Source of the DNA: Bacteroides sp.
GTDB taxonomy: Bacteria > Bacillota > Clostridia > Lachnospirales > Lachnospiraceae
Direction: 5' to 3'
DNA length: 64,000 nt
NCBI GenBank assembly: GCA_023666705.1
Contig: JAMPBO010000002.1
Coordinates: forward strand, 62,001 to 126,000
In this document: piece after piece, positions 11,432 through 33,641 of the stretch
Position numbering within the stretch: the first letter of the stretch is position 1
Layout of the letters: the number at the start of each line of letters is the position of its first letter
Program-made: the position numbers and the translations under genes
Notes under the pieces: model-generated
What the model was told of the DNA's origin: nothing
Databases searched by the model: none
The model's input: only the letters and a program-made list of their open reading frames with translations

Positions 11432-11432
11432 T

Positions 11433-12724: not shown

Positions 12725-12749
12725 TAGTAATATAACCAGCAGTTACAAG

Positions 12750-12784: not shown

Positions 12785-12842
12785 GTGGAAAATTTTCATT
12801 TTAAGTAAAAGCTTGGCAGATGAAACATTTATGCAAGGTATC

Positions 12843-12871
12843 TTGAGTTTACAAATTGGTTAGTGTATAAT
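12843..12871 (+). promoter_or_regulatory. Promoter upstream of pseG
   Basis: TTGAGT at 12843-12848 and TATAAT at 12866-12871 are spaced by 17 bases and lie about 40 bases before the pseG start. With the terminator just upstream, pseG and the following maf genes probably have their own transcript. Confidence 0.65.
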
Positions 12872-12912
12872 GACACATAGAGGTAGTCTCTGACAGAGAT
12901 GGTGGTGTAAGT

Positions 12913-13941: not shown

Positions 13942-15760
13942 AAAAAATATGCAGGAATTAAAAAATAAATATCCCATAATTTATAATGCGGTAAAGGATG
14001 TCTGTGCAGATGAGCTGTCTGATCTTGTGCATATTGAGGATGCCCGCAAGGGAGGTCAGATTGTTGTATATCATGATAATGGAAATGATGTATATTTAAA
14101 TTCAAAATATGACCCCGAAAATGAAGCGTTAAAGTACATGGAAGAAACCTTTGAAATGCAGCATGGTGCACTTCTTGTTATGTATGGTCTTTCCAATGGA
14201 TGCTATGTCAGGGAGCATATCAGACATGCAAAAAATAATACACGATGTATTGTGTTTGAACCAAGCAAAGAGGTGTTTGCACAGGTTATTTTCAATATTG
14301 ACATATCAGAACTAATTCAGTCAAATCGGATTTTCTTTATCGTGCAGAATGTAAATACCGAAGAATTTTCCACGATTGCGGGCGAATGGCTTGATATGAC
14401 AAATAAGGATGCAAGTAAGATAATGGCAGCTCCTAAATATATAGATTTATTTCGTGAGGGTTATGAGGTTTTTAAACAATGCTGTGTTGACATGCATGAG
14501 AAGCTGCATATCATGGCGAACATTGCAGAGGAATTTGGGGAAAAGGAAGTAAAAAATGAAATTGGTAATATGAAATATTTGGCAGGATGCCGCTTAGGCA
14601 CGGAGCTTAAGGGAATATTCCCCAATGATATACCTGCAATTATCGTATCCGCTGGTCCTTCCTTGGAAAAAAATGTCGAGCTTTTGAAGGAAGCAAGGGG
14701 AAAAGCGTTGATATTTGTGGTCGATGCAGCGATTCCTAAGGTAATGGAGCATGGAATAAAACCGGATGCAATTATATCAATCGATTGTATTGAAGGAACC
14801 AAGCCATTTGATTTTGACGGGATATGTGAATTGCCCTTTTTTGCACACACAAATTCAAATGCAGATGTTTTGGACTTTGTCAGACCGCAAAATTTATTTT
14901 TCTTTTCATCAGATTCTACAGTGTGGAACAAATTGTTTAAAAGATTGGGGAAAGATATGCCTGCCATGGATTTAGGAGGCTCTGTGGCAACTGCGGCAAT
15001 TGCAAACCTGATTTTATGGGGAATCAAAAAAATAATTGTAATCGGACAGGATTTAGCTTTGACAGATAACCGTACACATGTGGGAGAAACAACCATTGAG
15101 GTGAGTGAAAACGACAATCAGTATAAGATTGCAACGGATATCAATGGCGAGGATGTTATTACAAGAAAAGACTTTTACTATATCCAAAAATGGATGGAAG
15201 AGACTGCCTTAAAGCATAGTGATATTGAATTTATCGATGCTACAGAGGGCGGTACACGAAAAAAGAATTTTATCAATATGACCTTTCGGGAAGCAATTGA
15301 TAAATATTGCAAGGCAGAATATGACGTCGAAAAAATTATGCTGTCTGTTCCCCGTATGTTCGAAGGTGCTGAACATCAATTGATAATAGAAGCACTTGAA
15401 AAAATGAAAATGGATTTCAGAAATATGAAACGGCAGCTGGTCAACTGTAAAGCTGATTGTATAAGGGCGAAAAAATTAATTGAAAGTGGGGCAGGTAATA
15501 CCAGCGAGCTAAAACGCATTAACAGTAACATTGTAAAAACCGTTGAGCTGATAAAAAATTCAGATGAAAGTACTTGTATATATAAATGGACGGCAGGGGC
15601 AGAGTTTAACATGTTAAAGAATGATACGGCGGCAAGCGGTATTGAGAATTCAGCGGTTTCCCAGTGTGAGAAGAATGCAGGATATTTTGGCGAATTGGCA
15701 GATGCCATGCCAAAGCTTACGGCAATCGTTGATGAATGTCTATCGGAACTTAGACCATAA
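13928..15760 (+). CDS. maf: Maf flagellin glycosyltransferase (Maf4)
   Basis: This is a 610-residue Maf protein starting at an ATG inside the end of pseG, after AAGGGAGAG. It keeps all motifs seen in Maf1-3: YGLSNGCYVREHI, VFEPSKEVFAQV, SAGPSLEKN, GGSVATAAIANLI, IGQDLALTDN and FIDATEGGTRKKN. The C-terminal 130 residues diverge most between paralogues, as expected for the part that may contact different flagellins or donors. Translational coupling to pseG points to a Pse-related role, while its position before the second nonulosonate operon leaves a legionaminate-type donor possible. Confidence 0.92.
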   Translation: MTLYEKNMQELKNKYPIIYNAVKDVCADELSDLVHIEDARKGGQIVVYHDNGNDVYLNSKYDPENEALKYMEETFEMQHGALLVMYGLSNGCYVREHIRHAKNNTRCIVFEPSKEVFAQVIFNIDISELIQSNRIFFIVQNVNTEEFSTIAGEWLDMTNKDASKIMAAPKYIDLFREGYEVFKQCCVDMHEKLHIMANIAEEFGEKEVKNEIGNMKYLAGCRLGTELKGIFPNDIPAIIVSAGPSLEKNVELLKEARGKALIFVVDAAIPKVMEHGIKPDAIISIDCIEGTKPFDFDGICELPFFAHTNSNADVLDFVRPQNLFFFSSDSTVWNKLFKRLGKDMPAMDLGGSVATAAIANLILWGIKKIIVIGQDLALTDNRTHVGETTIEVSENDNQYKIATDINGEDVITRKDFYYIQKWMEETALKHSDIEFIDATEGGTRKKNFINMTFREAIDKYCKAEYDVEKIMLSVPRMFEGAEHQLIIEALEKMKMDFRNMKRQLVNCKADCIRAKKLIESGAGNTSELKRINSNIVKTVELIKNSDESTCIYKWTAGAEFNMLKNDTAASGIENSAVSQCEKNAGYFGELADAMPKLTAIVDECLSELRP

Positions 15761-15791
15761 TGGATTGTTTTACGTGTAGGAGGATAGCAGT

Positions 15792-17624
15792 ATGACCATA
15801 TACGAGAAAAATATGGACGCTTTGAAAGAAAAATATCAAATAATATATGATGCGTTAAAGGATATGGATCAGGATGCAGTATCGGATATTGTTCATGTTG
15901 AAGATGCCCGCAAGGGTGGACAGGTTGTTGTTTATGACGAGAACGGAAAGAGTATTTACTTAAATTCAAAATATGACCCTGAAAATGAGGCATCAAAATA
16001 TATGGAAGCTGCATTTGAAATGCCAAATCATGCATTGCTGATTATGTATGGTATTTCCAATGGCTGTTATGTCAGGGAGTACGTGAAGAAATCAAAAAAC
16101 AACACCAAGTGTATCGTGTTTGAACCAAATAAAGATATTTTTGTTCAGGTTATTTTACATATTGATATCTCGGATCTGCTTTGTTCAGAGCGGGTTTGTC
16201 TTATTATCAATGGAATAAACGATGAGACCTTTCTGTCTGAGATTGAAAAGCGGCTTGATATGGGTAACAGGGGTTTTAGCAGGATTATGTCAGCACCCAA
16301 ATATACAGAATTATTTCAGGATTGTTATGTGGAATTCAGAAATAACTGTACGGATGCATTCGAAAAGCAGGAAGCACTCACATATGCCGCTCTCAGCATG
16401 GGGAAAAAGGTTGCCCAAAATGAAATTTATAACATGCTTTATTTGGCGGGATGCAGAAGTGGTGCAGAATTGAAACACAGGTTTCCAACGGATATGCCTG
16501 TGATTATTGTAGCGGCAGGACCATCACTTGAAAAAAATATGTCTTATATAAATGAGGCAAAAGGGAAAGCGTTTATCATTGTTGTTGATACGGCTGTTGC
16601 AAGGGTTATGGGAAAAGGGATAAGACCGGATGCCATAATATCAATGGATGGAGAAAAACCTGTGGACATGTTTCAGGTAAAGGGAATAGAAGATGTACCG
16701 TTTTTGGCGGAGGTTGGAACAAACAGTGATGTTTTGGAGCATGTCGGACCAAAGGATTTATTTTTTATGTCAGCCAATTCTGGTATCTGGACAAAATTGT
16801 TTAAAAATGCAGGCAGTGAAATAGAGGATATTGAGTCAGGACTTTCTGTCACAACAGAGGCGGTGGCACTTGCTGTGTCATGGGGGATAAAGAAAATCAT
16901 TTTAATTGGGGCAGACCTTGCTTTTACAAATTTCGGGGCAGATGGAAATAATAGTAAGATGAATCTTCAGGGAGAAGATAAAGACTATATTTATGTTAAG
17001 GGGATGAATGGGGATGATGTTCTGACACGCAGGGATTATTATATATATCTGAAATGGCTGGAAAATATGGCATCAGAAAATATGGACGTAGAATTTATCG
17101 ATGCTACGGAGGGTGGTGCCTTAAAAAAGAATTTTATCAATATGACCTTTCGGGATGCAATCGATAAATATTGTAATAAAGAATGTGATGTTGAACATAT
17201 TTTGTCATCGGTGCCGAAGCTGTTTATTGGTGATAACAGCAGACTTATAACAGAAGCACTTGAAAAGGCAAAAAGAAATCTCCGTAATTTGAGAAAGCAG
17301 CTTGTAAGCTGCAAGGCTGATTGTCTGCTGGGGAAACGGATATTGGAGAGCGGAGATGGTAATATTAAAGAGCTTAACCGAATCAGTGCAAATGTTGATA
17401 AGCTGATTAAGGTAATAGAAGGCTGTGATGAAAGGGCACTGATATATAAATGGACGGTAGCCTCTGAATTGGACGTTTACCAAAAAATAAATGAAGAACA
17501 GGACGCCATAAAAGCAGGGATATGTGCATTTGAAACAAATGCAGCATATTTTGAGAAGCTTGGAAATGCCATGCCTGAGCTTGTGTCCATCATTGATGAC
17601 TGTATTGAAAAGCTGAAACAGTGA
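15792..17624 (+). CDS. maf: Divergent Maf glycosyltransferase (Maf5)
   Basis: This 610-residue protein is clearly a Maf paralogue by its N-terminus, YGISNGCYVREYV, AAGPSLEKN and FIDATEGGALKKN. Two segments that are otherwise constant have changed. GGSVATAA is replaced by SGLSVTTEA near residue 355. GQDLAxTxN is replaced by GADLAFTNF near residue 373, followed by an insertion rich in Gly and Asn instead of the usual HAGE/HVGE. The frame is intact and the gene has a good ribosome site (GTAGGAGGATAG). I read it as a functional but specialised Maf, perhaps with another donor. It ends 12 bases before the PtmE-like gene, so it is probably the Maf of the second nonulosonate. Confidence 0.9.
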   Translation: MTIYEKNMDALKEKYQIIYDALKDMDQDAVSDIVHVEDARKGGQVVVYDENGKSIYLNSKYDPENEASKYMEAAFEMPNHALLIMYGISNGCYVREYVKKSKNNTKCIVFEPNKDIFVQVILHIDISDLLCSERVCLIINGINDETFLSEIEKRLDMGNRGFSRIMSAPKYTELFQDCYVEFRNNCTDAFEKQEALTYAALSMGKKVAQNEIYNMLYLAGCRSGAELKHRFPTDMPVIIVAAGPSLEKNMSYINEAKGKAFIIVVDTAVARVMGKGIRPDAIISMDGEKPVDMFQVKGIEDVPFLAEVGTNSDVLEHVGPKDLFFMSANSGIWTKLFKNAGSEIEDIESGLSVTTEAVALAVSWGIKKIILIGADLAFTNFGADGNNSKMNLQGEDKDYIYVKGMNGDDVLTRRDYYIYLKWLENMASENMDVEFIDATEGGALKKNFINMTFRDAIDKYCNKECDVEHILSSVPKLFIGDNSRLITEALEKAKRNLRNLRKQLVSCKADCLLGKRILESGDGNIKELNRISANVDKLIKVIEGCDERALIYKWTVASELDVYQKINEEQDAIKAGICAFETNAAYFEKLGNAMPELVSIIDDCIEKLKQ

Positions 17625-17636
17625 GGTGAAAAGAAT

Positions 17637-18674
17637 ATGAGTTACATGGATTATTGCATAGACGTGTCCTATACAATAAAGGATGCTATGAAGTGTATTG
17701 AAATAGTAAAGCCTAAAATTGTTTTTATTGTCGAGGATAAGAAGCTTAAGGCATCCCTCACTGACGGCGATGTCAGAAGATTTTTACTTGCCGGTGGGGC
17801 ATTATCTGACCTTGCTATGGATGCAGGAAATAAAAAGACCCTTTATGCGGAAACCATGGCAGGGGCAATGGAGCTTTATCACCAGAAAAATTTTGTTGCC
17901 ATACCAATCGTAAATGATAAAAAAGAGCTTACCGATATTTATATTGGTGAAAAAAGCCGGTTGGGAAAGCAGGAACCGTTAAATATACCGGTTGTGATTA
18001 ATGCAGGCGGAAAAGGAACCCGTCTTGAGCCGTACACAAAAATATTACCGAAGCCTTTGATTCCTGTGGGCGATATGCCGATTATTGAGCATATTATGCA
18101 AAACTTTATTGAATACAGCTGTGAGCAGTTTAGCATTATTGTAAATTACAAAAAGGATTTGATTAAGGCATATTTTTCAGAGTGTGAGCAAAGCTACAAT
18201 ATTGAGTGGTATAACGAGGACAAGCCGCTTGGTACGGGTGGAGGGCTTTGTTATTTAAAGGGAAAGATAGATACTACATTTTTCTTTACAAACTGTGATA
18301 ACCTATTGTTGGCTGATTATGGAAGTATGCTTCGTTTTCATAGACAAAACGAAAATGTAATCACTATGGTTTGTGCATATAAAAATATAGTGATTCCATA
18401 CGGCGTGGTTGATATGGGATTAAATGGCACCATAAACTCCATGCAGGAAAAGCCGGAGCTTTCGTTTTTGACTAATACAGGCATATATATCGTGGAGCCT
18501 GAGGTTCTTGATGATATAGAAGATAATACGTTTGTCGGATTTCCTGACATTGTCAAAAAGCAGATGGAAAAAGGGAACAAGGTTTCCGTTTATCCTGTCA
18601 GTGAAAATGAATGGCTTGACATGGGACAGCTTCCTGAGCTGGAAAAGATGAGGGAACGATTGTACGGAGAATAG
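17637..18674 (+). CDS. ptmE: CBS-domain sugar-1-phosphate nucleotidyltransferase, PtmE-like
   Basis: The 345-residue protein joins an N-terminal CBS pair (about residues 5-115, with FIVEDKKLKASLTDGDVRR) to a nucleotidyltransferase domain. The latter opens with VVINAGGKGTRLEPYTK near residue 122 and LPKPLIPVGDMPI. This arrangement is that of PtmE, which in Campylobacter makes GDP-glucosamine for the GDP-dependent legionaminate route. The signature GGKGTR binds the NTP, and FTNCDNLL near residue 220 holds the metal-binding Asp. It begins the second nonulosonate operon, 12 bases after Maf5 and 6 bases before the next gene. Other CBS-nucleotidyltransferases serve heptose pathways, but the neighbours favour legionaminate-type sugars. 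Confidence 0.82.
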   Translation: MSYMDYCIDVSYTIKDAMKCIEIVKPKIVFIVEDKKLKASLTDGDVRRFLLAGGALSDLAMDAGNKKTLYAETMAGAMELYHQKNFVAIPIVNDKKELTDIYIGEKSRLGKQEPLNIPVVINAGGKGTRLEPYTKILPKPLIPVGDMPIIEHIMQNFIEYSCEQFSIIVNYKKDLIKAYFSECEQSYNIEWYNEDKPLGTGGGLCYLKGKIDTTFFFTNCDNLLLADYGSMLRFHRQNENVITMVCAYKNIVIPYGVVDMGLNGTINSMQEKPELSFLTNTGIYIVEPEVLDDIEDNTFVGFPDIVKKQMEKGNKVSVYPVSENEWLDMGQLPELEKMRERLYGE

Positions 18675-18680: not shown

Positions 18681-19739
18681 ATGGTTATTTTAAGGATATA
18701 TGATAAGCGTGATGCGGCAGCTTGGAATGAATGTGTGAAATCCTTTGATAATTGGGACATTTACTATTTGTATGAATATGCATATTCCTTTATGCTTCAT
18801 GGGGATGGAGACATTTTTCTTATTTATTATGAAAATAATGACGAACGATTCTGCTATGTTGTTATGCAGAGTGACATTGCAGATTTTGATAAGCTTGCGG
18901 GACGGCTGGAGCAGGGGAAAATGTTTGATTGGGAGACGCCATACGGCTATGGTGGTCCCTTGACAAATATGTCAGTTTCAAATGACACACAGGAGTTGTT
19001 TCTGAAAGAACTGGGTGAATATTGTAAGGAGAATAATATTGTCTCCCAGTTTGTAAGATTTCATCCGTTGCTTGGGAATGATAAGGCTTTGCCAAAGGTG
19101 TTTGAAACCAGATATTTAAGGGATACCATTTACATAGATACATCGGATAAAGAGCTGATTATGCAGAATATGGACAGCAAAAACCGGAACATGGTCCGCA
19201 AGGCAATCAAAAATAATATTTCCGTGGTCCGCAAAGAAATAGATGAGATAGATGACTTCATTTTCATGTATAATGAAACCATGAAAAAAAATGATGCAGA
19301 GGAGTATTATACTTTTGATAAACAATATTTCGATTACCTTATGGCATTAAAAGAAAATGCAGGTATATTTTATGCAATGTATGATGGAAAACCGGTCAGC
19401 GGTGCTATCATGTATTACAATGATAACTATATGCATTATCATTTGGCAGGCTCGAATACGGAATTTAAGAAATATGCCCCCAATAATTTGCTGTTATACG
19501 AGGCGGCATGCTGGGCATGTGGGCATGGAATTAAAAAATTTCATTTAGGAGGAGGAATGTCTCCTGATGACGGCTTGTTTGGGTTTAAAAAGCAGTTCAA
19601 CGATAAGGGAAGATGTCCGTTTGTGGTGGGAAGAACGATTTTTGATTTAGGGGCATACGATAAATTACTTCAAATGAGGAAGGAAATAAATCCGGAATTT
19701 GATATAAATAACGAATTTATGATTCAATATCGGAGGTAA
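18681..19739 (+). CDS. FemAB/GNAT-fold acyl or aminoacyl transferase
   Basis: The 352-residue protein has the double GNAT layout of FemAB-like and BioF2-like transferases. The typical segments are WETPYGYGGPL near residue 92, FVRFHPLL near 126, and the second-domain run AMYDGKPVSGAIMYYNDNYMH near residues 232-252. HLGGGMSPDDGLFGFKKQF near residue 290 is the substrate-end motif seen in this group. Members transfer an acyl or aminoacyl group to an amine, in FemX from charged tRNA. In this operon the likely acceptor is an amino group on the nonulosonate or its precursor. Whether the donor is acyl-CoA or aminoacyl-tRNA cannot be decided. It starts 6 bases after the previous stop, with GAGGTGG as ribosome site. 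Confidence 0.72.
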   Translation: MVILRIYDKRDAAAWNECVKSFDNWDIYYLYEYAYSFMLHGDGDIFLIYYENNDERFCYVVMQSDIADFDKLAGRLEQGKMFDWETPYGYGGPLTNMSVSNDTQELFLKELGEYCKENNIVSQFVRFHPLLGNDKALPKVFETRYLRDTIYIDTSDKELIMQNMDSKNRNMVRKAIKNNISVVRKEIDEIDDFIFMYNETMKKNDAEEYYTFDKQYFDYLMALKENAGIFYAMYDGKPVSGAIMYYNDNYMHYHLAGSNTEFKKYAPNNLLLYEAACWACGHGIKKFHLGGGMSPDDGLFGFKKQFNDKGRCPFVVGRTIFDLGAYDKLLQMRKEINPEFDINNEFMIQYRR

Positions 19740-19743: not shown

Positions 19744-20739
19744 ATGGGTGTATATATCATCGCAGAGGCGGGAGTCAATCATAACGGAAGCGTGGAACTT
19801 GCAAAGCAGCTATGCCTTGCTGCAAAGGAAGCGGGTGCAGATGCAGTTAAGTTTCAGACTTGGATTACTGAAAAAATAATAACGAAGGCTGTGAAGCAGG
19901 CGGATTACCAAAGTCAAAATACAGGAAGTGAAAAGTCACAGTACGACATGCTGAAAGAGCTTGAGCTTTCTTATGATGATTTTAGGGAAATCAAAAGGTA
20001 TTGTGATGAAATTGGTATTTGCTTTGCCTCGACAGCAGACGAGCCTGACAGTCTTGATTTTTTGATTGAGCTTGGGATTCCATTTATCAAGATAGGGTCG
20101 GGTGATATAGGAAACCTGCCGTTTTTACGGTATATTGGAAGTAAGAAGATGCCTGTGATTCTCAGTACGGGAATGAGTACGTTGGCTGATGTGGAAGACT
20201 CCTTAATGGCACTGAGGCAGGGAGGAGCAGAGGATATATCGCTGCTTCACTGCACCACAAGCTATCCGTGTCCTTATGATAGGGTCAATTTAAATGCCAT
20301 TGATACACTACGCAGTGCTTTTGGAGTGAATGTAGGTTATTCTGACCATACAATGGGCATAGAGGTTCCCATAGCAGCAGTAGCACGAAATGCTACAATC
20401 ATTGAAAAGCATTTTACCCTTGACAGAAGCATGGAGGGACCGGACCATTTGGCAAGCACGGAGCCAAAGGATTTTAAGCGGATGATGGCTGCAATCCGTA
20501 ATATAGAACAAGCATTGGGCAGTGGGAGCAAGCAGCCAACAAAGGAAGAAATAGAAATATCGCAGGTGGTGTTAAAGCGTATTGTAGCAAGGCGGTTCAT
20601 TCCTGAAGGAAAGATAATTGATGAGGAGGATTTGATTGTCAAGAGGAACGACAAAGGTATTTCCGTAAAATATTGGGATTTGATAATAGGAACAAACGCA
20701 AGAAAAAATTATGAGATTGACGAGGCGATAGAGTTTTGA
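19744..20739 (+). CDS. legI: Legionaminate/sialate synthase, NeuB family
   Basis: This 331-residue enzyme condenses a free N-acyl hexosamine with phosphoenolpyruvate. The barrel starts IIAEAGVNHNGSVELAKQL at residues 5-23. FIKIGSGDIGNLPFL near residue 118, GYSDHTMGIEVPIAA near 199 and EKHFTLDRSMEGPDHLAS near 221 match the LegI/NeuB subgroup and differ from PseI at 10382. A C-terminal SAF domain occupies about residues 275-331. Substrate choice between diacetamido-trideoxy-mannose (legionaminate) and ManNAc (sialate) cannot be settled by eye. PtmE next door favours the former. The stop TGA shares one base with the start of the next gene. Confidence 0.9.
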   Translation: MGVYIIAEAGVNHNGSVELAKQLCLAAKEAGADAVKFQTWITEKIITKAVKQADYQSQNTGSEKSQYDMLKELELSYDDFREIKRYCDEIGICFASTADEPDSLDFLIELGIPFIKIGSGDIGNLPFLRYIGSKKMPVILSTGMSTLADVEDSLMALRQGGAEDISLLHCTTSYPCPYDRVNLNAIDTLRSAFGVNVGYSDHTMGIEVPIAAVARNATIIEKHFTLDRSMEGPDHLASTEPKDFKRMMAAIRNIEQALGSGSKQPTKEEIEISQVVLKRIVARRFIPEGKIIDEEDLIVKRNDKGISVKYWDLIIGTNARKNYEIDEAIEF

Positions 20740-21941
20740 TGGCTGATAATACTGAAAATAAATATCAGATTTGTGTAGTAACAGGAACGAGAGCGGAGTA
20801 TGGTGTGCTGAAGGAGCTGCTGTTTAAGCTACGTGACGACAGCAGATGTAAGCTTACCCTTGTTGTTACAGGCAGCCATCTTGTTGAAAGGTTTGGAAAC
20901 ACGCAAAAGGAAATCATGGAAGATGGCTTTGAAGATTATATTAAGGTTCCTATCCCATTGGAGGATGATAGTAAACCGGGAATGGCAAAGGCTACAGGTG
21001 TAGCGATGGAAAGGTTTAGTGAGCTTTTTGCTGATTATAAGCCTGATATCTGTATTGTTTTAGGGGATAGATTTGAGATTTTTGCTGTCGCAGCAGCAGC
21101 ACATCTTGTGGGAATACCTGTTGCTCACATTTCGGGAGGCGATGTGACAGAGGGAGCAGTTGATGATGCCATGCGGCATTGTATCACCAAGCTGAGCACC
21201 CTGCATTTTCCGGGATGTGAACAGTCGGCAAAGAGAATTATCCAGATGGGAGAGCAGCCTGACAGCGTATTCAATGTGGGAGAACCGGGGGTTGAAAATT
21301 GCCTCAAGGTTGCGTGTATGTCCCGCAGGGAGCTTGCCGATAATCTGAATTTTGAGAAAATAATGGGAGATTATGCAGTAGTGACCTTTCATCCTGTTAC
21401 GATGGAAAATGGTACGGCAGCTTATCAATTACATGAGCTGATTTGTGCTATGGAGAAGTTCCCTGACCTATCGTATATTATTACAAAGGCAAATGCAGAC
21501 GCAGAGGGCAGGATTGTAAATGATATATGGCAGCAGGAGACGGAAAAGCATACGAACTGGAAGCTGGTTTCTTCCTTGGGCATGGTAAGATACTTATCGG
21601 CAGTAAAATATGCAAAGGCGGTTATCGGCAATTCGTCAAGTGGAATATTTGAGGCTCCGTCCATGGGAACGCCTACGGTAAATATTGGCGACCGGCAGAA
21701 AGGAAGAATGATGGCAGAAAGCATAGTAAGTTGCCTGCCTGAAAGGGAGCAAATTGCCGTTGCAATAAGGAAAGTATTGGATGATAATTTTCAAAAAATG
21801 GCAGAAAAAATTATTTCTTTGTATGGTGACGGAACAACGTCTGAGCAGATTATAAAATATAGTATGGAATATTTAAATAAAAATAAAACAAGAGAAAAAA
21901 AGTTTTATGATATTAATTTTGTTTTGGCAGGGAAAGGTTGA
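20739..21941 (+). CDS. legG: Hydrolysing NDP-sugar 2-epimerase, LegG/NeuC family
   Basis: The 400-residue protein is of the UDP-GlcNAc 2-epimerase/NeuC type. It removes the nucleotide and inverts C2 to give the free mannose-configured sugar used by the adjacent synthase. VVTGTRAEYGVLKELL near residue 10 is the NeuC/LegG start. VLGDRFEIFAVAAAAH near 107, HISGGDVTEGAVDDAMRH near 128 and GNSSSGIFEAPSMGTP near 300 are the conserved catalytic and nucleotide-site segments. I take the ATG at 20739, which overlaps the legI stop as TGATG, over a TTG three bases earlier. In legionaminate pathways the substrate is the GDP- or UDP-linked 2,4-diacetamido sugar. Confidence 0.9.
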   Translation: MADNTENKYQICVVTGTRAEYGVLKELLFKLRDDSRCKLTLVVTGSHLVERFGNTQKEIMEDGFEDYIKVPIPLEDDSKPGMAKATGVAMERFSELFADYKPDICIVLGDRFEIFAVAAAAHLVGIPVAHISGGDVTEGAVDDAMRHCITKLSTLHFPGCEQSAKRIIQMGEQPDSVFNVGEPGVENCLKVACMSRRELADNLNFEKIMGDYAVVTFHPVTMENGTAAYQLHELICAMEKFPDLSYIITKANADAEGRIVNDIWQQETEKHTNWKLVSSLGMVRYLSAVKYAKAVIGNSSSGIFEAPSMGTPTVNIGDRQKGRMMAESIVSCLPEREQIAVAIRKVLDDNFQKMAEKIISLYGDGTTSEQIIKYSMEYLNKNKTREKKFYDINFVLAGKG

Positions 21942-21950: not shown

Positions 21951-22664
21951 ATGACTAAAAAAAACAATGCCTTGAAAAGTATTGCCGTCATTCCGGCAAG
22001 AAGCGGCTCGAAAGGACTGAAAGATAAAAACATCATGGACTTAAACGGACATCCGCTTATGTATTACACGATTAAGGCGGCACTGAAATCAGGGTGCTTT
22101 GATGAGGTAATGGTGTCTACGGATTCAGATTATTATGCGGAAATTGCAGGAAACTGCGGAGCCGCTGTCCCTTTTTTAAGGAATGAGACGACTTCGGGTG
22201 ATTATGCAGGCTCGTGGGACGTTGTAAGAGAGGTTCTTTTCAATTATAAACAACAAGACAGGCAGTTTGATTATGTGGCATTGCTCCAGCCTACATCGCC
22301 GCTAAGAAATGAACAGGATATTTTAGGAGCTTTTGATATGCTAAAGCAGGAGAATATACATAATGTCGTAACTGTAACCGAGGTTGACCATCCTGTGCAG
22401 CAATGTTTTCGGATGCCTGAGGATGGTTCCATGAAGGAAATGGCAGAGTCACCTTACAGCTATGCCAGAAGGCAGGATTTGGAGCCATATTATAGGGAAA
22501 ACGGAGCAGTTTATCTGGTGGATGCAAAAAAGATAATGGATGCGGACTACAATTTTTATGCGGATGCCTGCCACGGATATGTTATGTTGCGTGAAAAATC
22601 CATTGATATCGATACGAGAATGGATTTAGAGATTGCCAAGGTTATCTTGAAATCATATACATAA
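21951..22664 (+). CDS. legF: CMP-nonulosonate cytidylyltransferase, LegF/NeuA
   Basis: This 237-residue CMP-sialate-type synthetase activates the product of the preceding synthase. IPARSGSKGLKDKN near residues 14-27 is the CTP-binding loop, with GLKDKN in place of the RIPKKN of PseF. VSTDSDYYAEIAGNCGA, LLQPTSPLRNEQDI and the C-terminal SIDIDTRMDLEIAK follow in the normal order. It sits 9 bases after legG and 19 bases before the acyltransferase gene. The presence of two different CMP-sugar synthetases in one island is good evidence for two different nonulosonates. Confidence 0.91.
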   Translation: MTKKNNALKSIAVIPARSGSKGLKDKNIMDLNGHPLMYYTIKAALKSGCFDEVMVSTDSDYYAEIAGNCGAAVPFLRNETTSGDYAGSWDVVREVLFNYKQQDRQFDYVALLQPTSPLRNEQDILGAFDMLKQENIHNVVTVTEVDHPVQQCFRMPEDGSMKEMAESPYSYARRQDLEPYYRENGAVYLVDAKKIMDADYNFYADACHGYVMLREKSIDIDTRMDLEIAKVILKSYT

Positions 22665-22683: not shown

Positions 22684-23334
22684 GTGAGCAAAGAGAAAAT
22701 TGTACTTGTAGGAAATGGTCAGCATGCCAGAGTTGTTTTATACAATTTAAAAATGCAGGGCTTATATGATGTGGCTTGCTTTACAACGCATGACCCTGCA
22801 TTGGTTGGAAGTATCTATGAGGGCTATGAAATCGGAGGCACAGATAGCGATATCGATCTGTTACGTGAAAAATATCATACTAATAAGTTTTTTATTGCGT
22901 TCGGAGACATGAAAAAAAGGAAAAAGGTATATGAATATTATGTTTCTAAAGGATGGGAAGCAGTAAATATTATTCATCCCGATGCGGTTGTATCAGACGA
23001 AGCAAAAATAGGGAAAGGTGTATTAATAGAATGTGGTTGCCTGATTACACCAAATCCCGTAATTGGCAATAATGTTGTTGTCAACACGGGTTCACAGGTT
23101 AATCATGATAACATTGTAGAAGACCATGTATATATAGCATCAGGGGTAATTTTGTCGGGGGGGGTGACTATAAGAGAAAATACGCTCCTTGATGATGGCG
23201 TTATCGTGACACTGGGACGGAAGGTGGAAAAAAATTGTCTGATTGGTGCAGGCGCAGTGGTTACTAAGGATGTTCCTGAAAATGTGATAGCATATGGAAG
23301 TCCGGCAAAAGTGGTAAGGGATAATGATTATTAA
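22684..23334 (+). CDS. NeuD/PglD-like hexapeptide acyltransferase
   Basis: The 216-residue protein starts at GTG 22684 after AAAGGAGGT. An N-terminal Rossmann-like domain (IVLVGNGQHARVVLYNLK at residues 6-23) precedes a left-handed beta-helix of hexapeptide repeats from about residue 95. In the helix, NTGSQVNHDNIVEDHVYI contains the catalytic His seen in PglD/NeuD. The C-terminal segment AYGSPAKVVRDN closes the family pattern. PglD acetylates the 4-amino group of the bacillosamine precursor, and NeuD O-acetylates sialate. Here it could be the LegH step or a transfer of another acyl group. The ammonia-lyase homologue 13 bases downstream makes a 3-aminobutyryl donor worth testing. Confidence 0.85.
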   Translation: MSKEKIVLVGNGQHARVVLYNLKMQGLYDVACFTTHDPALVGSIYEGYEIGGTDSDIDLLREKYHTNKFFIAFGDMKKRKKVYEYYVSKGWEAVNIIHPDAVVSDEAKIGKGVLIECGCLITPNPVIGNNVVVNTGSQVNHDNIVEDHVYIASGVILSGGVTIRENTLLDDGVIVTLGRKVEKNCLIGAGAVVTKDVPENVIAYGSPAKVVRDNDY

Positions 23335-23346
23335 GGAGGATGTAAA

Positions 23347-23736
23347 ATGGAAAAAATAACTTCAACAATCAGATTAAGAATGTCTGCGAAGGATGCACAT
23401 TATGGCGGCAATTTAGTAGATGGGGCACATATGGTTCATTTGTTTGGGGATGTAGCAACAGAATTGCTTATTAAAGCAGATGGTGACGAGGGATTATTCT
23501 GTGCATATGATGAGGTCACATTCCTTGCACCAGTATATGCTGGGGACTATATAGAGGCATATGGGGAAATTACTGCTTTTGGTAATACATCAAGAAAAAT
23601 GAAATTTGTGGCAAAAAAGGTGATTGCTGCCAGACCTGATATAAGTCCGTCGGCAGCAGATTTTTTGGAAGAGCCTATCGTTGTCTGCACTGCAAGTGGT
23701 ACTTGTGTTACACCAAAGGAGTGTAAGCGGAAGTAA
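23347..23736 (+). CDS. kal: 3-aminobutyryl-CoA ammonia-lyase homologue (hotdog fold)
   Basis: The 129-residue protein resembles Kal, the lysine-fermentation enzyme that interconverts 3-aminobutyryl-CoA and crotonyl-CoA plus ammonia. The segments [20 protein letters not shown] near residues 16-35, [20 protein letters not shown] near 58-77 and [10 protein letters not shown] near 97 are the ones I recognise in that family, and the length is about normal. It is the last gene of the operon, with AAGGAGGATG before its ATG, and none of the other lysine-fermentation genes (kamA, kamD/E, kdd, kce) are near. I infer that it runs in the amination direction to make an acyl donor for the sugar. A plain thioesterase role is the main alternative. 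Confidence 0.82.
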
Positions 23737-23846: not shown

Positions 23847-25793
23847 TTAGTTTAATTTAAAATCACCCAACTGCTCCTCAACAATTTTCATGCAGGCATC
23901 CAAAAGTTGGCTATCTTCTAAAACAGTACCTTTTTCATCACGTAAATCTAAATGTGCATTAGCTAAAGAAACCCTGCAATCATTTTGCACTTTGGTATCT
24001 GATTGTATGTAGAATTTGTAACCCTTGCCTAAAATCATTGCACTGTAGTATCTGTCAGGAAATAAGCTTGATGAAAATACATACGATTTCTCTTTGGTGC
24101 CGCCCAAAAATTTTGGCAATTGCCCATCATTTATTGCCATCCGCTCATCATGAATACCAGCTAAATGCATCATAATATGATTATAATCTATGGTTTCTAT
24201 TCGCTCATTGCAGACGGATGGCTTGAGGGTTCCGCCACGAAGCATAAGAGGCACATTCATTCTTTGCTCGCAAATAAAGTAATTATCTTCATCTACATTA
24301 AATGCATTTCCGTGGTCGGAAATCAACGAAACGATAATCTCATCTTCGGAATAATGATCCAGTATATAATCATAGAGCCGTTTTAGTTGATAATCCAAAT
24401 ACCCCAATTGCCGTTCATATACAATCCGTCTGTTAGGGCTTGGTGTCTGATACAGACTGCTGCCGCCAATATTATCAATCACATTAACATCAATCGGCAA
24501 ATGAGTCTGGACAGAAAGCGGCATTGGCCAGTATCCGGAAACATAATGTAAATCCTGAAGATCCATCCAAATAAAGTTGTCCGTTTCAGAAAAAGCAGCC
24601 ATATGCTCAATTACTTCATTCACACATTCATCAGCATGGAATACCCCTTCTGAGTAACCATATAAGGTTCGGTCAATACCCCGTATATATCCATATTGAG
24701 GGCAGATGGAATCATTTCCTCCTATTTTTGACGTAAAATATCCATTATCATGGAAAACTTCAGATAACAATGGCATATCCTCAGGTATCGAATAGTGCAA
24801 ATTTTGATTTAGCATTTGATGATGTGTAGGGCGGTATCCTGTCCAATATGAGGCAATACTTGGATACGTAAACTCTGAACCAGCATAAAATTCAGTGCAT
24901 ATTACACCATTCTTAAAAAAGTTATATGTGTGAGGCATTAGAATGCGAAGCTTATCTTCTTTGATGCATTTATAATTAAAACTGTCAATAAAAATATTTA
25001 ATATCAGCTTTTTGTTTCCTTTTTTGTGGTGAAGCGGAATTGGCTTTCCAATTATCATAGGATATTTTGCATGGAGTGCAATTGGTTTTTCGAGACGGTA
25101 ATGCTCATATGCTTTCGCATAGTCAGCCTGAAAGCTTTCTGTATTGTTACCTGATTTTTTGTATGACAATACATTCGCTTTGTTTTCAGTGTTGGTTACA
25201 ACAGGGAGAATACAAGGGAATGATGTTAAATGTTCGTCAACATCAATATCGCTCCCTTGCTGAATTATTTCATAAATCTCAGATTGTAATATAACACCAT
25301 TTTCTATAAAGTTATATGCACCATAATATGGATACCATGAATTATATCTTCCTATGTAATAATTTTTTCCAAAATATCTGTGAATTCCCAAATAGTTCTC
25401 TATATTTTCGGAAATAGCAAAATAATTCCTTGAAATATCCTTATCTAGCTCATTAACATCAAGCAGATTGTTTTTGATCGAAATTTGTATTTCTTTTGGC
25501 AGGTGGATCAGTTGTTTAATTGCTATATCGATAACCGTATCGAGTTTGATTGATAACTCGCTTTCCGGAATAATTTCAGTTCCATAGTTACATTGCATAT
25601 AATATAAATAACTATAAAAACGATAGCTATCCAGCCATTCTTGCGTGTTTTCTGCACATACTGCCAACATATAAGTTGCCTGTAAATTCAGCCGGTTTCT
25701 TTTGACTGCTTCACGGGAGTATTCTAATGCCTCTGTCCATTTTTTCTGTTCCATCAAAATTTCTATTTTATTAATCAATGAATCGTAATTCAT
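23847..25793 (-). CDS. Sulfatase-superfamily protein with TPR-like N-terminus
   Basis: The 648-residue protein has no signal peptide or membrane segment that I can see, so it is probably cytoplasmic. Residues 1-100 look like helical TPR-type repeats. From about residue 262 it matches the alkaline phosphatase/sulfatase fold: LILNIFIDSFNYK supplies a metal Asp at 270, TYPSIASYWTG at 309-319 is the nucleophile loop, and SLISDHGNAF near 490 supplies the second metal Asp/His pair. The sulfatase Cys position is Thr309 and the usual Arg is Ile, as in phosphotransferases of this superfamily. I infer transfer or hydrolysis of a phosphate-linked group on the glycan. It is the only minus-strand gene in this part. 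Confidence 0.75.
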   Translation of the reverse strand: MNYDSLINKIEILMEQKKWTEALEYSREAVKRNRLNLQATYMLAVCAENTQEWLDSYRFYSYLYYMQCNYGTEIIPESELSIKLDTVIDIAIKQLIHLPKEIQISIKNNLLDVNELDKDISRNYFAISENIENYLGIHRYFGKNYYIGRYNSWYPYYGAYNFIENGVILQSEIYEIIQQGSDIDVDEHLTSFPCILPVVTNTENKANVLSYKKSGNNTESFQADYAKAYEHYRLEKPIALHAKYPMIIGKPIPLHHKKGNKKLILNIFIDSFNYKCIKEDKLRILMPHTYNFFKNGVICTEFYAGSEFTYPSIASYWTGYRPTHHQMLNQNLHYSIPEDMPLLSEVFHDNGYFTSKIGGNDSICPQYGYIRGIDRTLYGYSEGVFHADECVNEVIEHMAAFSETDNFIWMDLQDLHYVSGYWPMPLSVQTHLPIDVNVIDNIGGSSLYQTPSPNRRIVYERQLGYLDYQLKRLYDYILDHYSEDEIIVSLISDHGNAFNVDEDNYFICEQRMNVPLMLRGGTLKPSVCNERIETIDYNHIMMHLAGIHDERMAINDGQLPKFLGGTKEKSYVFSSSLFPDRYYSAMILGKGYKFYIQSDTKVQNDCRVSLANAHLDLRDEKGTVLEDSQLLDACMKIVEEQLGDFKLN

Positions 25794-25946: not shown

Positions 25947-25975
25947 TTTACATGGAATTAAAACTATGTTAAAAT
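25947..25975 (+). promoter_or_regulatory. Promoter of the glycan assembly operon
   Basis: TTTACA at 25947-25952 and TAAAAT at 25970-25975 are separated by 17 bases. Transcription would start after 25980. This agrees with translation from the ATG at 26020, not from 25966. Confidence 0.6.
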
Positions 25976-26019
25976 TTAAAAAGATAATTATAAATATATT
26001 TGATCAGTGGAGGCAGCAT

Positions 26020-26676
26020 ATGAAATCTTTTAATGACGGTTGGGAAAAAATCCATGCAGAGAATGCATGGGGGAAATATCCTTCCGAGCATGTTGTACGC
26101 TTTGTGGCGAGAAACTATTATAAAAAGGAAAGAAAAGCTGTAAGGATATTGGATTTTGGCTGTGGTGCGGGAGCACATACATGGTTTCTTGCCAGGGAGG
26201 GCTTTGATACATATGCATTTGACGGTTCAAAAAGTGCGGTGGAGAGGGCGAAAGCATACCTTGAAAAAGAAGGGCTTAAAGCTGATTTTAAGGTGATGGA
26301 TGCGGTGGAACAAGGTTATGCCAATGACTTTTTTGATTGTGTGATTGATAATGTAACTGTATATGCCAATAAGCTTGATGATATCAGGCGGATGTATCAA
26401 AATATATATAATATGCTAAAGGAAGGTGGAACTATATTAACTGCTGTATTTTCCAAAAATACACAAGGGTATGGTGAAGGCGAGGAAATAGAGAAGGATA
26501 CCTTTATCAGTGTGCAGTTAAGTACGACAATGACGCCGCTGGCCCATTATTTTGATGAAGGAAGCCTCACTGATATACTTGCAGAAATCGGGTTTAAGGA
26601 TATCTGCATGGAGACGAGCCGTTACACAGATAGAGGAAATACAGTCGAGCATATTATTGTTTCCGCAGTTAAATGA
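26020..26676 (+). CDS. Class I SAM-dependent methyltransferase
   Basis: The protein has 218 residues from the ATG at 26020, which follows GTGGAGGCAGC. An ATG at 25966 would fall within the promoter. The SAM site ILDFGCGAGAHTWFLAREGF lies near residues 45-64, followed by FDGSKSAVERAKAYLE and the post-motif DCVIDNVTVYANKLDDIRRM. The rest fits a Methyltransf_11-type domain that fills the whole protein. It is the first gene of the rightward glycan operon, so a sugar or glycan methylation role is likely. The N-terminal GWEKIHAENAWGKYPSE may help bind a nucleotide sugar or polypeptide. No closer assignment is possible. Confidence 0.82.
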   Translation: MKSFNDGWEKIHAENAWGKYPSEHVVRFVARNYYKKERKAVRILDFGCGAGAHTWFLAREGFDTYAFDGSKSAVERAKAYLEKEGLKADFKVMDAVEQGYANDFFDCVIDNVTVYANKLDDIRRMYQNIYNMLKEGGTILTAVFSKNTQGYGEGEEIEKDTFISVQLSTTMTPLAHYFDEGSLTDILAEIGFKDICMETSRYTDRGNTVEHIIVSAVK

Positions 26677-30312: not shown

Positions 30313-31092
30313 ATGAAGGTCGTAATTTTAGCGGGTGGTTTCGGAACGAGAATATCCGAGGAATCGGAATATAAACCAAAGCCTATGATTGAAATCGGTG
30401 GTATGCCCATTTTGTGGCATATTATGAAGGAGTATTCTGTATATGGGTTCCATGAATTTATAATCTGTGCAGGATATAAGCAGCATATGATAAAGAAGTG
30501 GTTTGCGGATTATTTTCTTTATACGTCTGACATGACCTTTGATTTCACGCAGGGAAATAAAATGACGATTCACGACCAAAAATCAGAACCGTGGAAGGTG
30601 ACGGTTGTGAACACGGGACCACATACCATGACAGGAGGACGTATAAAGCGGATTAAGCCCTATGTGGAAAATGAAACATTTCTTATGACATATGGAGACG
30701 GTGTGTGTGATGTTGATATTTCTAAGCTGGTTGCCTTTCATAACAGTCATGGAAAAATTGCAACGCTTACATCGGTTATGATGAATCAGCAAAAGGGCGT
30801 GCTCGATATCGGAGGAGATAATGCCGTTCGTTCCTTCCGTGAGAAAAGCATGACGGATGGGGCACCGATCAATGCGGGATATATGGTTTTAGAACCAAAA
30901 ATATTTGATTATATTGAGGGTGACGATACGGTTTTTGAGCAGGAACCATTAAGAAGTCTGGCGGAAGAAGGAGAACTGATGTCCTATTTACATAAAGGTT
31001 ACTGGCAGTGTATGGACACAAAACGGGAAAAAGATATATTAGAGCACTTATGGGAAACAAAACAGGCACCTTGGAAGAAATGGGAGGATTAA
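30313..31092 (+). CDS. rfbF: Glucose-1-phosphate cytidylyltransferase
   Basis: RfbF makes CDP-glucose from CTP and glucose-1-phosphate, the entry to CDP-linked 3,6-dideoxyhexoses. The 259-residue length is normal. VVILAGGFGTRISEESEYKP at residues 3-22 is the activation loop, followed by KPMIEIGGMPILWHIMKEYS. LMTYGDGVCDVDI near residue 117 holds the metal Asp, and the C-terminal WQCMDTKREKDILEHLWE is typical of RfbF. It has a good ribosome site, AAAGGAGGGC. It opens the CDP-sugar set and is followed at 2 bases by rfbH; the partner dehydratase rfbG is 7 kb downstream. Confidence 0.95.
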   Translation: MKVVILAGGFGTRISEESEYKPKPMIEIGGMPILWHIMKEYSVYGFHEFIICAGYKQHMIKKWFADYFLYTSDMTFDFTQGNKMTIHDQKSEPWKVTVVNTGPHTMTGGRIKRIKPYVENETFLMTYGDGVCDVDISKLVAFHNSHGKIATLTSVMMNQQKGVLDIGGDNAVRSFREKSMTDGAPINAGYMVLEPKIFDYIEGDDTVFEQEPLRSLAEEGELMSYLHKGYWQCMDTKREKDILEHLWETKQAPWKKWED

Positions 31093-31094
31093 GT

Positions 31095-32435
31095 ATGTTT
31101 CAGGACAAGACAGAGCAACAGGCAAAGGATGAAATACTAAGTTTGGTAAAAGAGTATTGTGATACATTTCACAATCAAAGGAAGCCATTTGAGCCGGGAG
31201 ACAGAATTGCATATGCTTCAAGGGTATATGATTCGGATGAAATGTGCAATCTGGTTGACGCTGCATTAGAGTTTTGGCTTACCTCGGGTAGATACACAAA
31301 TGAATTTGAAAAAGAATTTTCCAAATATTTAGGCGTGAAATACTGTTCGCTTGTGAATTCAGGCTCCTCTGCAAATCTGCTTGCTTTCATGGCACTTACG
31401 TCGCCGCTTTTGGGTGAAAGGCAGGTACGGCCCGGTGATGAAATGATTACGGTGGCAGCAGGCTTTCCGACTACGGTTACCCCTGCCATACAATATGGCG
31501 TGGTTCCTGTTTTTATTGATGTTACAATCCCACAATATAATATGGACGTGGGTATGCTTGAGACGGCATTGTCAGATAAGACAAAGGTTGTGATGGCGGC
31601 ACATACGCTTGGAAATCCATTTGACCTAAAGGCGGTCAGGGAATTTTGTGACAAGCATGGGCTTTGGTTGATTGAGGATAATTGTGATGCACTTGGAACA
31701 ACATATGAGATAGACGGCGAGGTCCGTTATACGGGAACAATCGGAGATATCGGTACATCGTCATTTTATCCGCCGCACCATATGACAATGGGAGAAGGCG
31801 GTGCCGTTTATACAAATAATCCATTGCTCCATAAATGTGTCCGTTCTTTTCGGGATTGGGGCAGGGATTGTGTATGTAATCCGGGTCAGGACAATATGTG
31901 TGGTCACAGGTTTGACGGAAAGTATGGCGAACTGCCCTCAGGATATGACCATAAGTATGTTTATTCCCATTTTGGTTATAACCTTAAGGCAACAGATATG
32001 CAGGCTGCCGTCGGATGTGCACAGCTTAAAAAGTTCCCGTCTTTCGTTGAGAAAAGAAAAAAGAATTTTGCACGCTTAAGGGATGCATTAAAGGGATGCG
32101 GGGATAAGCTGATTTTGCCTGAGGCATGTGAACATTCTGACCCAAGCTGGTTTGGATTTTTGATTACATGTAAGGAGGGCGTGGACCGTAATGTACTGGT
32201 TCCTTACCTTGAGGGAAAGGGGATACAGACGCGTATGCTGTTTGCAGGAAATCTTGTGAAGCATCCTTGCTTTGACCAAATGAGAAAAACGGGAAAAGGA
32301 TACCGTATAGCAGGCGAATTGACAAATACAGACCGTATCATGAGAGATTCTTTTTGGATTGGTGTATACCCGGGAATGACGGATGAAATGACGGATTATA
32401 TGGCGAAGATTATAAAAGAAGCGGTTATGGGTTGA
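31095..32435 (+). CDS. rfbH: CDP-4-keto-6-deoxyglucose 3-dehydrase (E1 type)
   Basis: This 446-residue PMP/iron-sulfur enzyme removes the C3 hydroxyl of CDP-4-keto-6-deoxyglucose. I take ATG 31095 after TGGGAGG and reject the longer frame from 31008 that overlaps rfbF. The DegT-fold Schiff-base lysine is replaced by His229 in SSFYPPHHMTMGEGG, the diagnostic change of E1 enzymes. The cysteines for the [2Fe-2S] cluster are present: C197 in DNCDALG and C259, C261 and C269 in CVCNPGQDNMC. E1 needs an electron-transfer partner (E3/YerD type); none is encoded next to it in this window. Confidence 0.95.
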   Translation: MFQDKTEQQAKDEILSLVKEYCDTFHNQRKPFEPGDRIAYASRVYDSDEMCNLVDAALEFWLTSGRYTNEFEKEFSKYLGVKYCSLVNSGSSANLLAFMALTSPLLGERQVRPGDEMITVAAGFPTTVTPAIQYGVVPVFIDVTIPQYNMDVGMLETALSDKTKVVMAAHTLGNPFDLKAVREFCDKHGLWLIEDNCDALGTTYEIDGEVRYTGTIGDIGTSSFYPPHHMTMGEGGAVYTNNPLLHKCVRSFRDWGRDCVCNPGQDNMCGHRFDGKYGELPSGYDHKYVYSHFGYNLKATDMQAAVGCAQLKKFPSFVEKRKKNFARLRDALKGCGDKLILPEACEHSDPSWFGFLITCKEGVDRNVLVPYLEGKGIQTRMLFAGNLVKHPCFDQMRKTGKGYRIAGELTNTDRIMRDSFWIGVYPGMTDEMTDYMAKIIKEAVMG

Positions 32436-32457
32436 TGTTGAAAAGGGGGTTATCGAT

Positions 32458-33630
32458 GTGAGTTACAGATTGTCAAATGCAGCAGAGCTGCTTCAGGGTC
32501 AGCCGATGTTTAAAATCCTGTCAAGAATAAAAGAGATGGAGCGGGCAGGAGAGCATATTGTCCACTTTGAAATCGGAGACCCGGATTTTTCATCGCCGAC
32601 CAATGTTATCAAGGCTTGTGAGGATGCATTGGAGAACGGCTACACCCACTACTCTGATTCGATGGGTGATTATGAATTCCGCAAGGCGATTGCCGAGAAT
32701 AATATGTTTACAAGAGGATTTCAGCCTGATATCAGTCAGGTTTTGGTTACCCCGGGTGCAAATATTATGATTTATTATGCCGTGCGTTGTCTGGTAAATC
32801 CGGGGGATGAGGTTATCGTTCAGGACCCATGTTTTCCAACCTATTTATCCGTATTTAATTTTTGCGGGGTTAAGGCGGTAGGTGTTCCGCTTAAAGAGGA
32901 AAATGAATTCAGGCTGCAGCCAAGGGATTTGGAACAGGTAATCACGGAAAAAACACGGCTGATTATAATAAACAGTCCGCACAATCCAACAGGTGCGGTT
33001 ATGCGTAAGGAGGAGCTTGAGGAGATTGCAAATATTGCTTTGGAGCATAAGGTTTATTTGTATCTGGATGAAATTTATTCGAGGATGAACTGGGGTGAGA
33101 CTTCATTTTTCAGTCCGTCAATTGTGGATAAATGTAAGGATTACATGATTTTGGCAAACGGTTTTTCTAAGGCATTTGCCATGACGGGATGGAGGCTTGG
33201 CGTGGGTATCGGGCCAAGTGATGTAATAGAGAAAATGGGACTTTTGTTACAGACAACGTCGTCCTGTGTCCCAAGCTTTATCCAACAGGCAGGTATTGAG
33301 GCAATCCGTGGTGACCAGTCACAGGTAAAGCAAATGATGGCGGAGTATAAGAGAAGGCGGGACATTTTAGTTTCGGGTTTAAATGAAATAGACAAAATAG
33401 AATGTTTAAATCCAGGCGGGGCATTTTATGTATTCCCAAACATCAAAGCTACAGGGCTGACAAGTGCGGAGTTCACAAAACGTCTGCTCGAGGAAGCTAA
33501 GGTTGGGGTATGTTCAGGCCGTGATTTCGGAGAAGCGGGAGAGGGCTACATCAGACTTTGCTATGCAACCTCAGAGGATGAAATTGTAGAAGGCGTCAGA
33601 CGGATTAAGACATTCGTTGACAGTTTATAA
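32458..33630 (+). CDS. Class I/II PLP aminotransferase in the CDP-sugar set
   Basis: The 390-residue protein starts at GTG 32458 after AAAAGGGGG. It has fold-type I aspartate aminotransferase motifs: HFEIGDPDFSSPTNV near residue 41, INSPHNPTGAV near 175 with its cofactor-site Asn, LYLDEIYS near 202, and the Schiff-base lysine K238 in NGFSKAFAMTGWRLG. These enzymes usually act on amino and keto acids, unlike the DegT sugar aminotransferases. Next to a TPP enzyme it may set the supply of a keto acid, or aminate the side branch made on the sugar. The substrate cannot be read from sequence. Confidence 0.85.
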   Translation: MSYRLSNAAELLQGQPMFKILSRIKEMERAGEHIVHFEIGDPDFSSPTNVIKACEDALENGYTHYSDSMGDYEFRKAIAENNMFTRGFQPDISQVLVTPGANIMIYYAVRCLVNPGDEVIVQDPCFPTYLSVFNFCGVKAVGVPLKEENEFRLQPRDLEQVITEKTRLIIINSPHNPTGAVMRKEELEEIANIALEHKVYLYLDEIYSRMNWGETSFFSPSIVDKCKDYMILANGFSKAFAMTGWRLGVGIGPSDVIEKMGLLLQTTSSCVPSFIQQAGIEAIRGDQSQVKQMMAEYKRRRDILVSGLNEIDKIECLNPGGAFYVFPNIKATGLTSAEFTKRLLEEAKVGVCSGRDFGEAGEGYIRLCYATSEDEIVEGVRRIKTFVDSL

Positions 33631-33641
33631 GGAGGAGAACT

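Follow-up and report, generated by a model that had tools for sequence, protein, structure and literature searches.

Kal interconverts crotonyl-CoA plus ammonia and 3-aminobutyryl-CoA, and its described setting is lysine fermentation, where it forms part of a gene set with kamA, kamDE, kdd and kce. The known direction of that pathway runs from 3-aminobutyryl-CoA to crotonyl-CoA (PMC8473912, in excerpts). Among sugar pathways, the closest described system is the legionaminic-acid pathway, comprising PtmE, LegB, LegC, LegH, LegG, LegI and LegF in Campylobacter; in this pathway and in clostridial flagellar islands, N-acylation is a standard step that precedes hydrolysis and condensation (excerpts of PMC13317340). 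N-acetyltransferases of the PglD/PerB/NeuD type (PDB 3bss and 4ea7) provide a further point of comparison, as does the 3-hydroxybutyryl QuiNAc4N of Plesiomonas shigelloides O1, which likewise carries a four-carbon acyl group on a bacillosamine-type 4-amine but with a hydroxyl in place of the amine of the group proposed here (PMC10609480, in excerpts). The excerpted text of that review counts 3-hydroxybutyryl and amino acids among amino-sugar N-acyl groups, and the string “aminobut” has no occurrence in its main text. Among the best matches in open-licence PMC, a scope that leaves subscription carbohydrate journals outside, no paper was found on 3-aminobutyryl joined to nonulosonates, flagellin or bacterial polysaccharide; one paper among the matches, PMC9966250, contains the words “aminobutyryl”, “flagellin” and “glycosylation”.

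Here we analyse a 64,000-nucleotide stretch of DNA (the window) from a genome of the Lachnospiraceae (2.86 Mb in 31 contigs, rated 100% complete; G000), in which a kal gene ends a nonulosonate operon. Our preferred reading, to which we give a probability of roughly 60% on sequence evidence, is that Kal makes 3-aminobutyryl-CoA and that the neighbouring NeuD attaches it, which would yield a 7-N-(3-aminobutyryl) legionaminic-type sugar. If so, nonulosonate biosynthesis would have a further N-acyl variant, and the recruitment of the enzyme would be its surprising part. Throughout, G numbers denote genomes of the samples searched and L numbers denote fetched loci.

A kal gene at the end of a nonulosonate operon

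On the plus strand, never more than 20 bases apart, lie a Maf-type gene and then the genes of the compact operon in the order PtmE-like, FemAB-like, NeuB, NeuC, CMP-nonulosonate synthetase, NeuD and Kal. The Maf-type gene directly upstream of the operon (15792..17624) encodes an MptE-like protein (Pfam PF01973, 120.8 bits, cut-off 34.6), a family that we take to be linked to Maf, and is a probable flagellin glycosyltransferase. It is followed by a PtmE-like sugar-1-phosphate nucleotidyltransferase (17637..18674; PF00483, 105.3 bits) that is 86-87% identical in L001 and L002, the loci of two other genomes of the genus, and by a FemAB/GNAT-like protein (18681..19739; PF13480, 57.6 bits; PF02388, 53.7 bits). 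The NeuB/LegI-type nonulosonate synthase (19744..20739; TIGR03569, 451.1 bits, cut-off 399.65) and the NeuC/LegG-type nucleotide-sugar hydrolysing 2-epimerase (20736..21941; TIGR03568, 438.1 bits, cut-off 235.9) both score over cut-off against models that are named for neuraminate enzymes. The CMP-nonulosonate synthetase of LegF/PseF type (21951..22664; PF02348, CTP_transf_3, 94.9 bits) falls below the PseF cut-off of TIGR03584 (189.3 vs 205.7 bits). The last two genes encode a 216-aa acyltransferase of NeuD/PglD type with a GTG start (22684..23334; TIGR03570 NeuD_NnaD, 190.9 bits, cut-off 160.8) and the 129-aa Kal (23347..23736). These two open reading frames are present as claimed by the original prediction, which had kal closing a nonulosonate operon behind a NeuD/PglD-like gene; the spacing between them is 12 bases and not the 13 given there.

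Compared with the legionaminic-acid pathway of Campylobacter, the window locus has PtmE-, LegG/NeuC-, LegI/NeuB- and LegF-like genes as well as Maf-type genes, but its operon is without LegB and LegC, has a separate NeuD subfamily, and carries kal and FemAB as extra genes. A SAM methyltransferase gene on the plus strand (25966..26676; PF13649, 61.9 bits) has its homologue directly 3' of kal in L001 and L002, and N- or O-methylation of the product is possible. In the window, kal and the methyltransferase gene are separated by a minus-strand gene for a sulfatase-domain protein (23847-25793), which L001 and L002 do not have at this position. A scan of the window gave 56 promoter-like matches (37.1 expected) and 6 terminator-like matches (7.1 expected).

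Kal without a lysine-fermentation cluster

The protein scores 194 bits against the NCBIfam equivalog NF052388 (“Lys_ferment_KAL”), 34 bits over the cut-off of 160, in agreement with the predicted assignment as a 3-aminobutyryl-CoA ammonia-lyase homologue, and a genome-wide search found it to be the single Kal of its genome. We surveyed the loci of the best 80 of 567 relatives in genome_contigs. Kal is 82-89% identical to 78 of these (all save L001 and L002), 77 of which have flanking lysine genes; the fetched flank of 77/80 contains one or more of Kce, Kdd, KamA, KamD and KamE, with Kce itself found in 18. The remaining three loci are L001 and L002, which have the nonulosonate operon, and L007, which has neither. 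In a Lachnospiraceae family sample, Kal was present in 10/397 genomes, and in the nine of these other than our own, Kdd- and KamD-like genes lie beside kal (9/9). In a genus sample, it was present in 3/37 genomes, namely our genome and those of L001 and L002 (hereafter, the trio).

In contrast to this usual setting, the kal of the window stands behind NeuD with no lysine genes nearby: using the proteins of a lysine cluster (L106) as queries, tblastn at E 1e-8 found no relative of Kce, Kdd, KamA, KamD or KamE in the window, which bears out the earlier statement that none of the other lysine-fermentation genes are around kal. In the stretches of the genome that were read (563,709 bases including the window, ~20%), the only lysine-gene match was a 73-residue, 38% match to KamA. 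The BKACE/Kce domain (PF05853) was not found anywhere in the genome, whereas the same model gave 374.3 bits for the L106 Kce as a control. The possibility raised beforehand, that the genome might have an otherwise complete lysine-fermentation cluster with no kal in it, is therefore excluded as regards Kce. As the genome is rated 100% complete and its single Kal is accompanied by no Kce, lysine would not be feeding Kal by the known route.

Conservation and origin of the NeuD-Kal pair

The NeuD-Kal pair occurs in the same operon in every Kal-bearing genome of the genus (3/37), representing three species, which argues that the arrangement is not due to chance. The Kal protein of the window shares 98 and 97% identity with those of L001 and L002, whereas four-fold sites of the gene are only 56 and 65% alike (55 sites each), and NeuD is 94% identical in both comparisons. 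For nine other genes compared with L001 and L002, four-fold sites were 44-59% alike and protein identities were 76-94%. A near-identical Kal protein with diverged four-fold sites points to strong purifying selection and not to recent arrival; judged by these identities, no other proteins of the operon are as constrained as Kal and NeuD, and both have been retained over a long time. A recent joint arrival of kal and NeuD was considered and ruled out, as the divergence of their four-fold sites is, for either gene, close to that of the neighbouring genes.

In a Kal tree of 93 rows (the window row is present twice) and 129 columns, the Kals of the trio group together (100/97) and fall within an 84-row clade (100/97) to which none of the nine Lachnospiraceae lysine Kals belong; with weaker support (85/85), the trio stands beside a 26-row clade containing Clostridium aminobutyricum and Anaerovorax. 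Given this placement apart from the lysine Kals of its family, kal was probably acquired from outside the Lachnospiraceae. No relative of kal or of the window NeuD was found on the viral contigs searched, and a plasmid search for the window NeuD returned two records of 29.0 and 32.5% identity.

The nonulosonate operon itself seems to be confined to the trio within the genus. A genus-sample search with the FemAB-like protein found the trio and one 36% relative, in G418. There, a 35% FemAB-like relative (L130 9818-10867), which has no Pfam match at 1e-10, lies near genes that are LegC-like and sugar-transferase-like by eye.

Co-occurrence of a rare NeuD subfamily with Kal

The NeuD of the window belongs to a rare subfamily. 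A search of the 397 family-sample genomes at E 1e-30 gave 33% identity for its best relative in another genome (G144) and 34% for its own-genome paralogue. The class sample (391 genomes) contained relatives of 66-67% identity in G658 and G810 and of 41% in G453; Kal is present in the first two genomes and absent from G453 and G144. Across the samples searched, six genomes (the trio, G810, G658 and G811) had a NeuD relative with 60% identity or more, all of them Kal-positive, although G811 was reached through its kal and so is not an independent match of the NeuD search.

In the class sample, 23/391 genomes have a Kal over cut-off, against 29 when E 1e-30 is used as the limit, and the class samples for the NeuD and Kal searches have the same size and the same listed genomes. 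With our own genome left out, the genomes with the NeuD subfamily are 2/2 Kal-positive compared with 22/390 overall, a coincidence with a chance of ~0.003 if the two are independent; as G658 and G810 are congeners, the co-occurrence in the class sample is nearer to one event. This suggests that few independent events lie behind the link between Kal and NeuD. A search of 49 other Kal-positive genomes with the window NeuD gave no match (0/49, E 1e-35); this search had no control of its own, and the same query had matched in the family and class samples. The idea that the NeuD subfamily is a common gene of lysine fermenters was ruled out on this result.

In G810 and G658, NeuD lies near PglF-like (Polysacc_synt_2), LegC-like and PglC-like (bacterial sugar-transferase) genes, of which the PglF-like gene was profile-scanned in L128 only and in G810 crosses the edge of the fetched stretch; the LegC-like genes score 320.7 (G810) and 319.3 bits (G658) against a cut-off of 420. 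The sole Kal of each genome is located in a lysine cluster, ~25 and ~35 kb from NeuD, respectively.

Like the PglD/PerB/NeuD-type N-acetyltransferases, the window NeuD belongs to the TIGR03570 family and has the conserved His141, which is invariant in 9/9 rows of alignment A1 and aligns to the residue that differs among PDB entries 4ea7, 4eaa and 4eab. It differs from them in an Asp170-Asp171 pair that, among the rows compared, is found only in the Kal-linked subfamily (6/6 subfamily NeuDs). The pair is absent from the three other A1 rows and from the three PDB families aligned, although VioB has a Glu where the first Asp stands, and may form an ammonium-binding site.

A second kal near the same NeuD subfamily

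The stray-kal locus L007 belongs to G811, a lysine fermenter that also has a lysine-cluster kal (L143). The stretch upstream of it (L142) encodes a PglF-like protein (3-1871; Polysacc_synt_2, 401.5 bits), a LegC-like protein (1958-3133; 360.2 bits, cut-off 420), a PglC-like sugar-transferase (3123-3776; Bac_transf, 206.8 bits) and a NeuD that is 72% identical to that of the window (3773-4420), with further polysaccharide genes leading to the second kal (17138-17527; NF052388, 188.6 bits), which ends the gene run. The LegC-like, PglC-like and NeuD genes overlap, which points to a 4-amino-sugar acceptor for this NeuD; such an overlap would fit acylation by NeuD of what the aminotransferase makes, a nucleotide-4-amino-4,6-dideoxy-GlcNAc. 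The two kal copies of G811 are identical at 382/390 bases and share the 15 bases before the start, while only 2/15 bases are alike downstream; by this comparison the second kal is a recent duplicate and not the source of the trio's kal. An assembly artefact was judged unlikely from the eight base differences and the different flanks.

Among the best 80 kal loci, the only stray kal outside the nonulosonate operon thus shares its locus with the rare NeuD. Together with the operon of the trio, this indicates that kal was recruited twice beside one NeuD subfamily. G811 has in addition a third, distant Kal-like protein of 297 aa (L144 1898-2791; 62 bits to NF052388, below cut-off), whose gene adjoins genes that by eye look like those for a CoA-transferase, EtfAB and acyl-CoA dehydrogenase.

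Proposed pathway and competing explanations

In the proposed pathway, Kal would aminate crotonyl-CoA with NH3 to 3-aminobutyryl-CoA, which the adjacent NeuD would take as acyl donor to N-acylate the 4-amine of nucleotide-activated 2-acetamido-4-amino-2,4,6-trideoxyglucose. NeuC would then release and 2-epimerise the sugar, NeuB would condense it with phosphoenolpyruvate, and the CMP synthetase would activate the product to a CMP-legionaminic-type acid with 3-aminobutyryl on N-7, the position on which the acyl group would end because N-acylation precedes hydrolysis and condensation in the legionaminic pathway. Maf-type proteins may finally transfer the 3-aminobutyryl sugar to flagellin. Kal would be expected to run here in the reverse of its direction in lysine fermentation, which rests on the reversibility of the beta-amino-acyl-CoA lyase reaction; the reaction of another CoA-dependent beta-amino-acyl ammonia lyase comes to a halt at ~40% conversion, which hints at an equilibrium (PMC4619459, in excerpts). 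Bcd, EtfA and EtfB, sought as a sign of crotonyl-CoA, had no match in the 563,709 bases (~20%) of the genome that were read.

As for the acceptor, no protein of the genome is over the cut-off for LegB (TIGR04180, best 124.9 bits, cut-off 475) or for LegC (TIGR04181, cut-off 420), where the best score of 284.6 bits belongs to the PseC of the window. Contig ends truncate LegC-like pieces that reach 139-144 bits across positions 170-338 of 359. Contigs C22 and C21 end in LegC-like and sugar-transferase genes that closely resemble each other (L086 1-1778 and L089 13673-15411); this repeat appears to interrupt the assembly and to conceal a LegC-like gene. The window's contig also encodes, ~34 kb upstream of the window, a PglF-like protein of 660 aa (L087 6371-8353; Polysacc_synt_2, 402.9 bits), and this dehydratase together with the LegC-like fragments could supply the 4-amino sugar.

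Kal might make 3-aminobutyryl-CoA for a different use, in which NeuD O-acylates a finished nonulosonate, for example of Neu5Ac type made from UDP-GlcNAc via NeuC and NeuB, to give an O-(3-aminobutyryl) sugar. NeuB and NeuC do pass the equivalogs of the N-acetylneuraminate pathway, and LegB and LegC are not over cut-off in the genome, but the operon includes a PtmE-like gene, the window's contig carries the PglF-like gene, and the NeuDs of L127, L128 and L142 lie near PglF-, LegC- and PglC-like genes with no NeuB match in the stretches fetched, which points to a 4-amino acceptor and leaves O-acylation unlikely. We regard it as equally unlikely that the FemAB-like protein (18681) or another acyltransferase moves the 3-aminobutyryl group while NeuD acts as a conventional acetyltransferase. 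FemAB proteins work with aminoacyl groups, and all three genomes keep the gene in this operon; against such a role, there is no FemAB relative in the fetched NeuD loci of G810, G658 and G811, its 35-36% relative is found in G418, a Kal-negative genome, and the neighbour and tracking partner of kal is NeuD. Where the original prediction had named either the NeuD-like or the FemAB-like protein as the transferase, NeuD is thus favoured as the likely one.

Two further explanations would remove Kal from the sugar pathway or give it another substrate. The enzyme could have a housekeeping or scavenging role in ammonia assimilation or release or in the use of imported 3-aminobutyrate, with its place in the operon being accidental, and a Kal without the lysine pathway in Thaumarchaeota has been read as scavenging (PMC8397731, in excerpts). 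This is difficult to reconcile with a position after NeuD that is kept in three species with diverged DNA, with the placement of the second G811 kal in a NeuD locus, and with scanned neighbours that include no beta-amino-acid or CoA-ligase gene, and we consider it quite improbable. A thioesterase, or a lyase of another acyl-CoA such as beta-alanyl-CoA that would provide another donor, is suggested by the hotdog family, which includes thioesterases (Pfam 4HBT, 21.8 bits, cut-off 20.6), and by the solved structure closest in sequence, which is the beta-alanyl-CoA:ammonia lyase 4mtu (E 1.6e-26). The margin over the equivalog cut-off and the high identity to the Kals of lysine clusters speak against this, making it the least probable of the explanations considered, and the concern that the protein is only a thioesterase appears unlikely to apply.

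The reading in which Kal supplies 3-aminobutyryl-CoA for decoration of a sugar, which was the core of the original prediction, appears strengthened by the co-occurrence with NeuD, the second recruitment, the purifying selection and the lack of Kce. For a wider proposal we see the balance as about even: a dedicated 3-aminobutyryl-glycan pathway in which the NeuD/PglD subfamily would be a nucleotide-4-amino-sugar N-(3-aminobutyryl)transferase, its donor would come from lysine fermentation or from a recruited kal, and at least two recruitments would have taken place (the Lachnospiraceae nonulosonate operon and the bacillosamine-type polysaccharide locus of G811), adding a free primary amine and positive charge to sialic-acid-like or bacillosamine-type sugars. 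If true, an enzyme of catabolism would have been put to biosynthetic use, providing surface sugars with a beta-amino-acyl-CoA building block and linking butyrate-type central metabolism to glycan chemistry. A zwitterion-forming acyl group would be added to those of nonulosonates, the orphan kal would be explained, and the NeuD subfamily together with kal would become a predictive genome marker; kal alone in metagenomes would not be enough to call lysine fermentation or butyrate production.

Other genes in the window

A separate pseudaminic-acid set occupies positions 4798-13941 (PseB 525, PseC 526, PseF 270, PseI 494 and PseG 160 bits), with a PseH-like GNAT of 40 bits, below its cut-off of 93, and an ATP-grasp gene at 11415-12407. 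This set and the nonulosonate operon indicate two nonulosonate pathways side by side. Five MptE-like/Maf-type paralogues, grouped by sequence likeness, are found at 107-4795 and 13928-17624, and 3/3 of those tested with Pfam are PF01973. Further downstream (30313-39248) lie CDP-sugar-like genes, including a nucleotidyltransferase (59.6 bits), a CDP-glucose 4,6-dehydratase (438.8 bits), a DegT-family RfbH-like protein (295 bits) and a TPP-dependent enzyme (33642-35444), which by eye look like a route to a branched CDP-3,6-dideoxy sugar. L001 departs from the window beyond the RfbH-like gene, on its downstream side.
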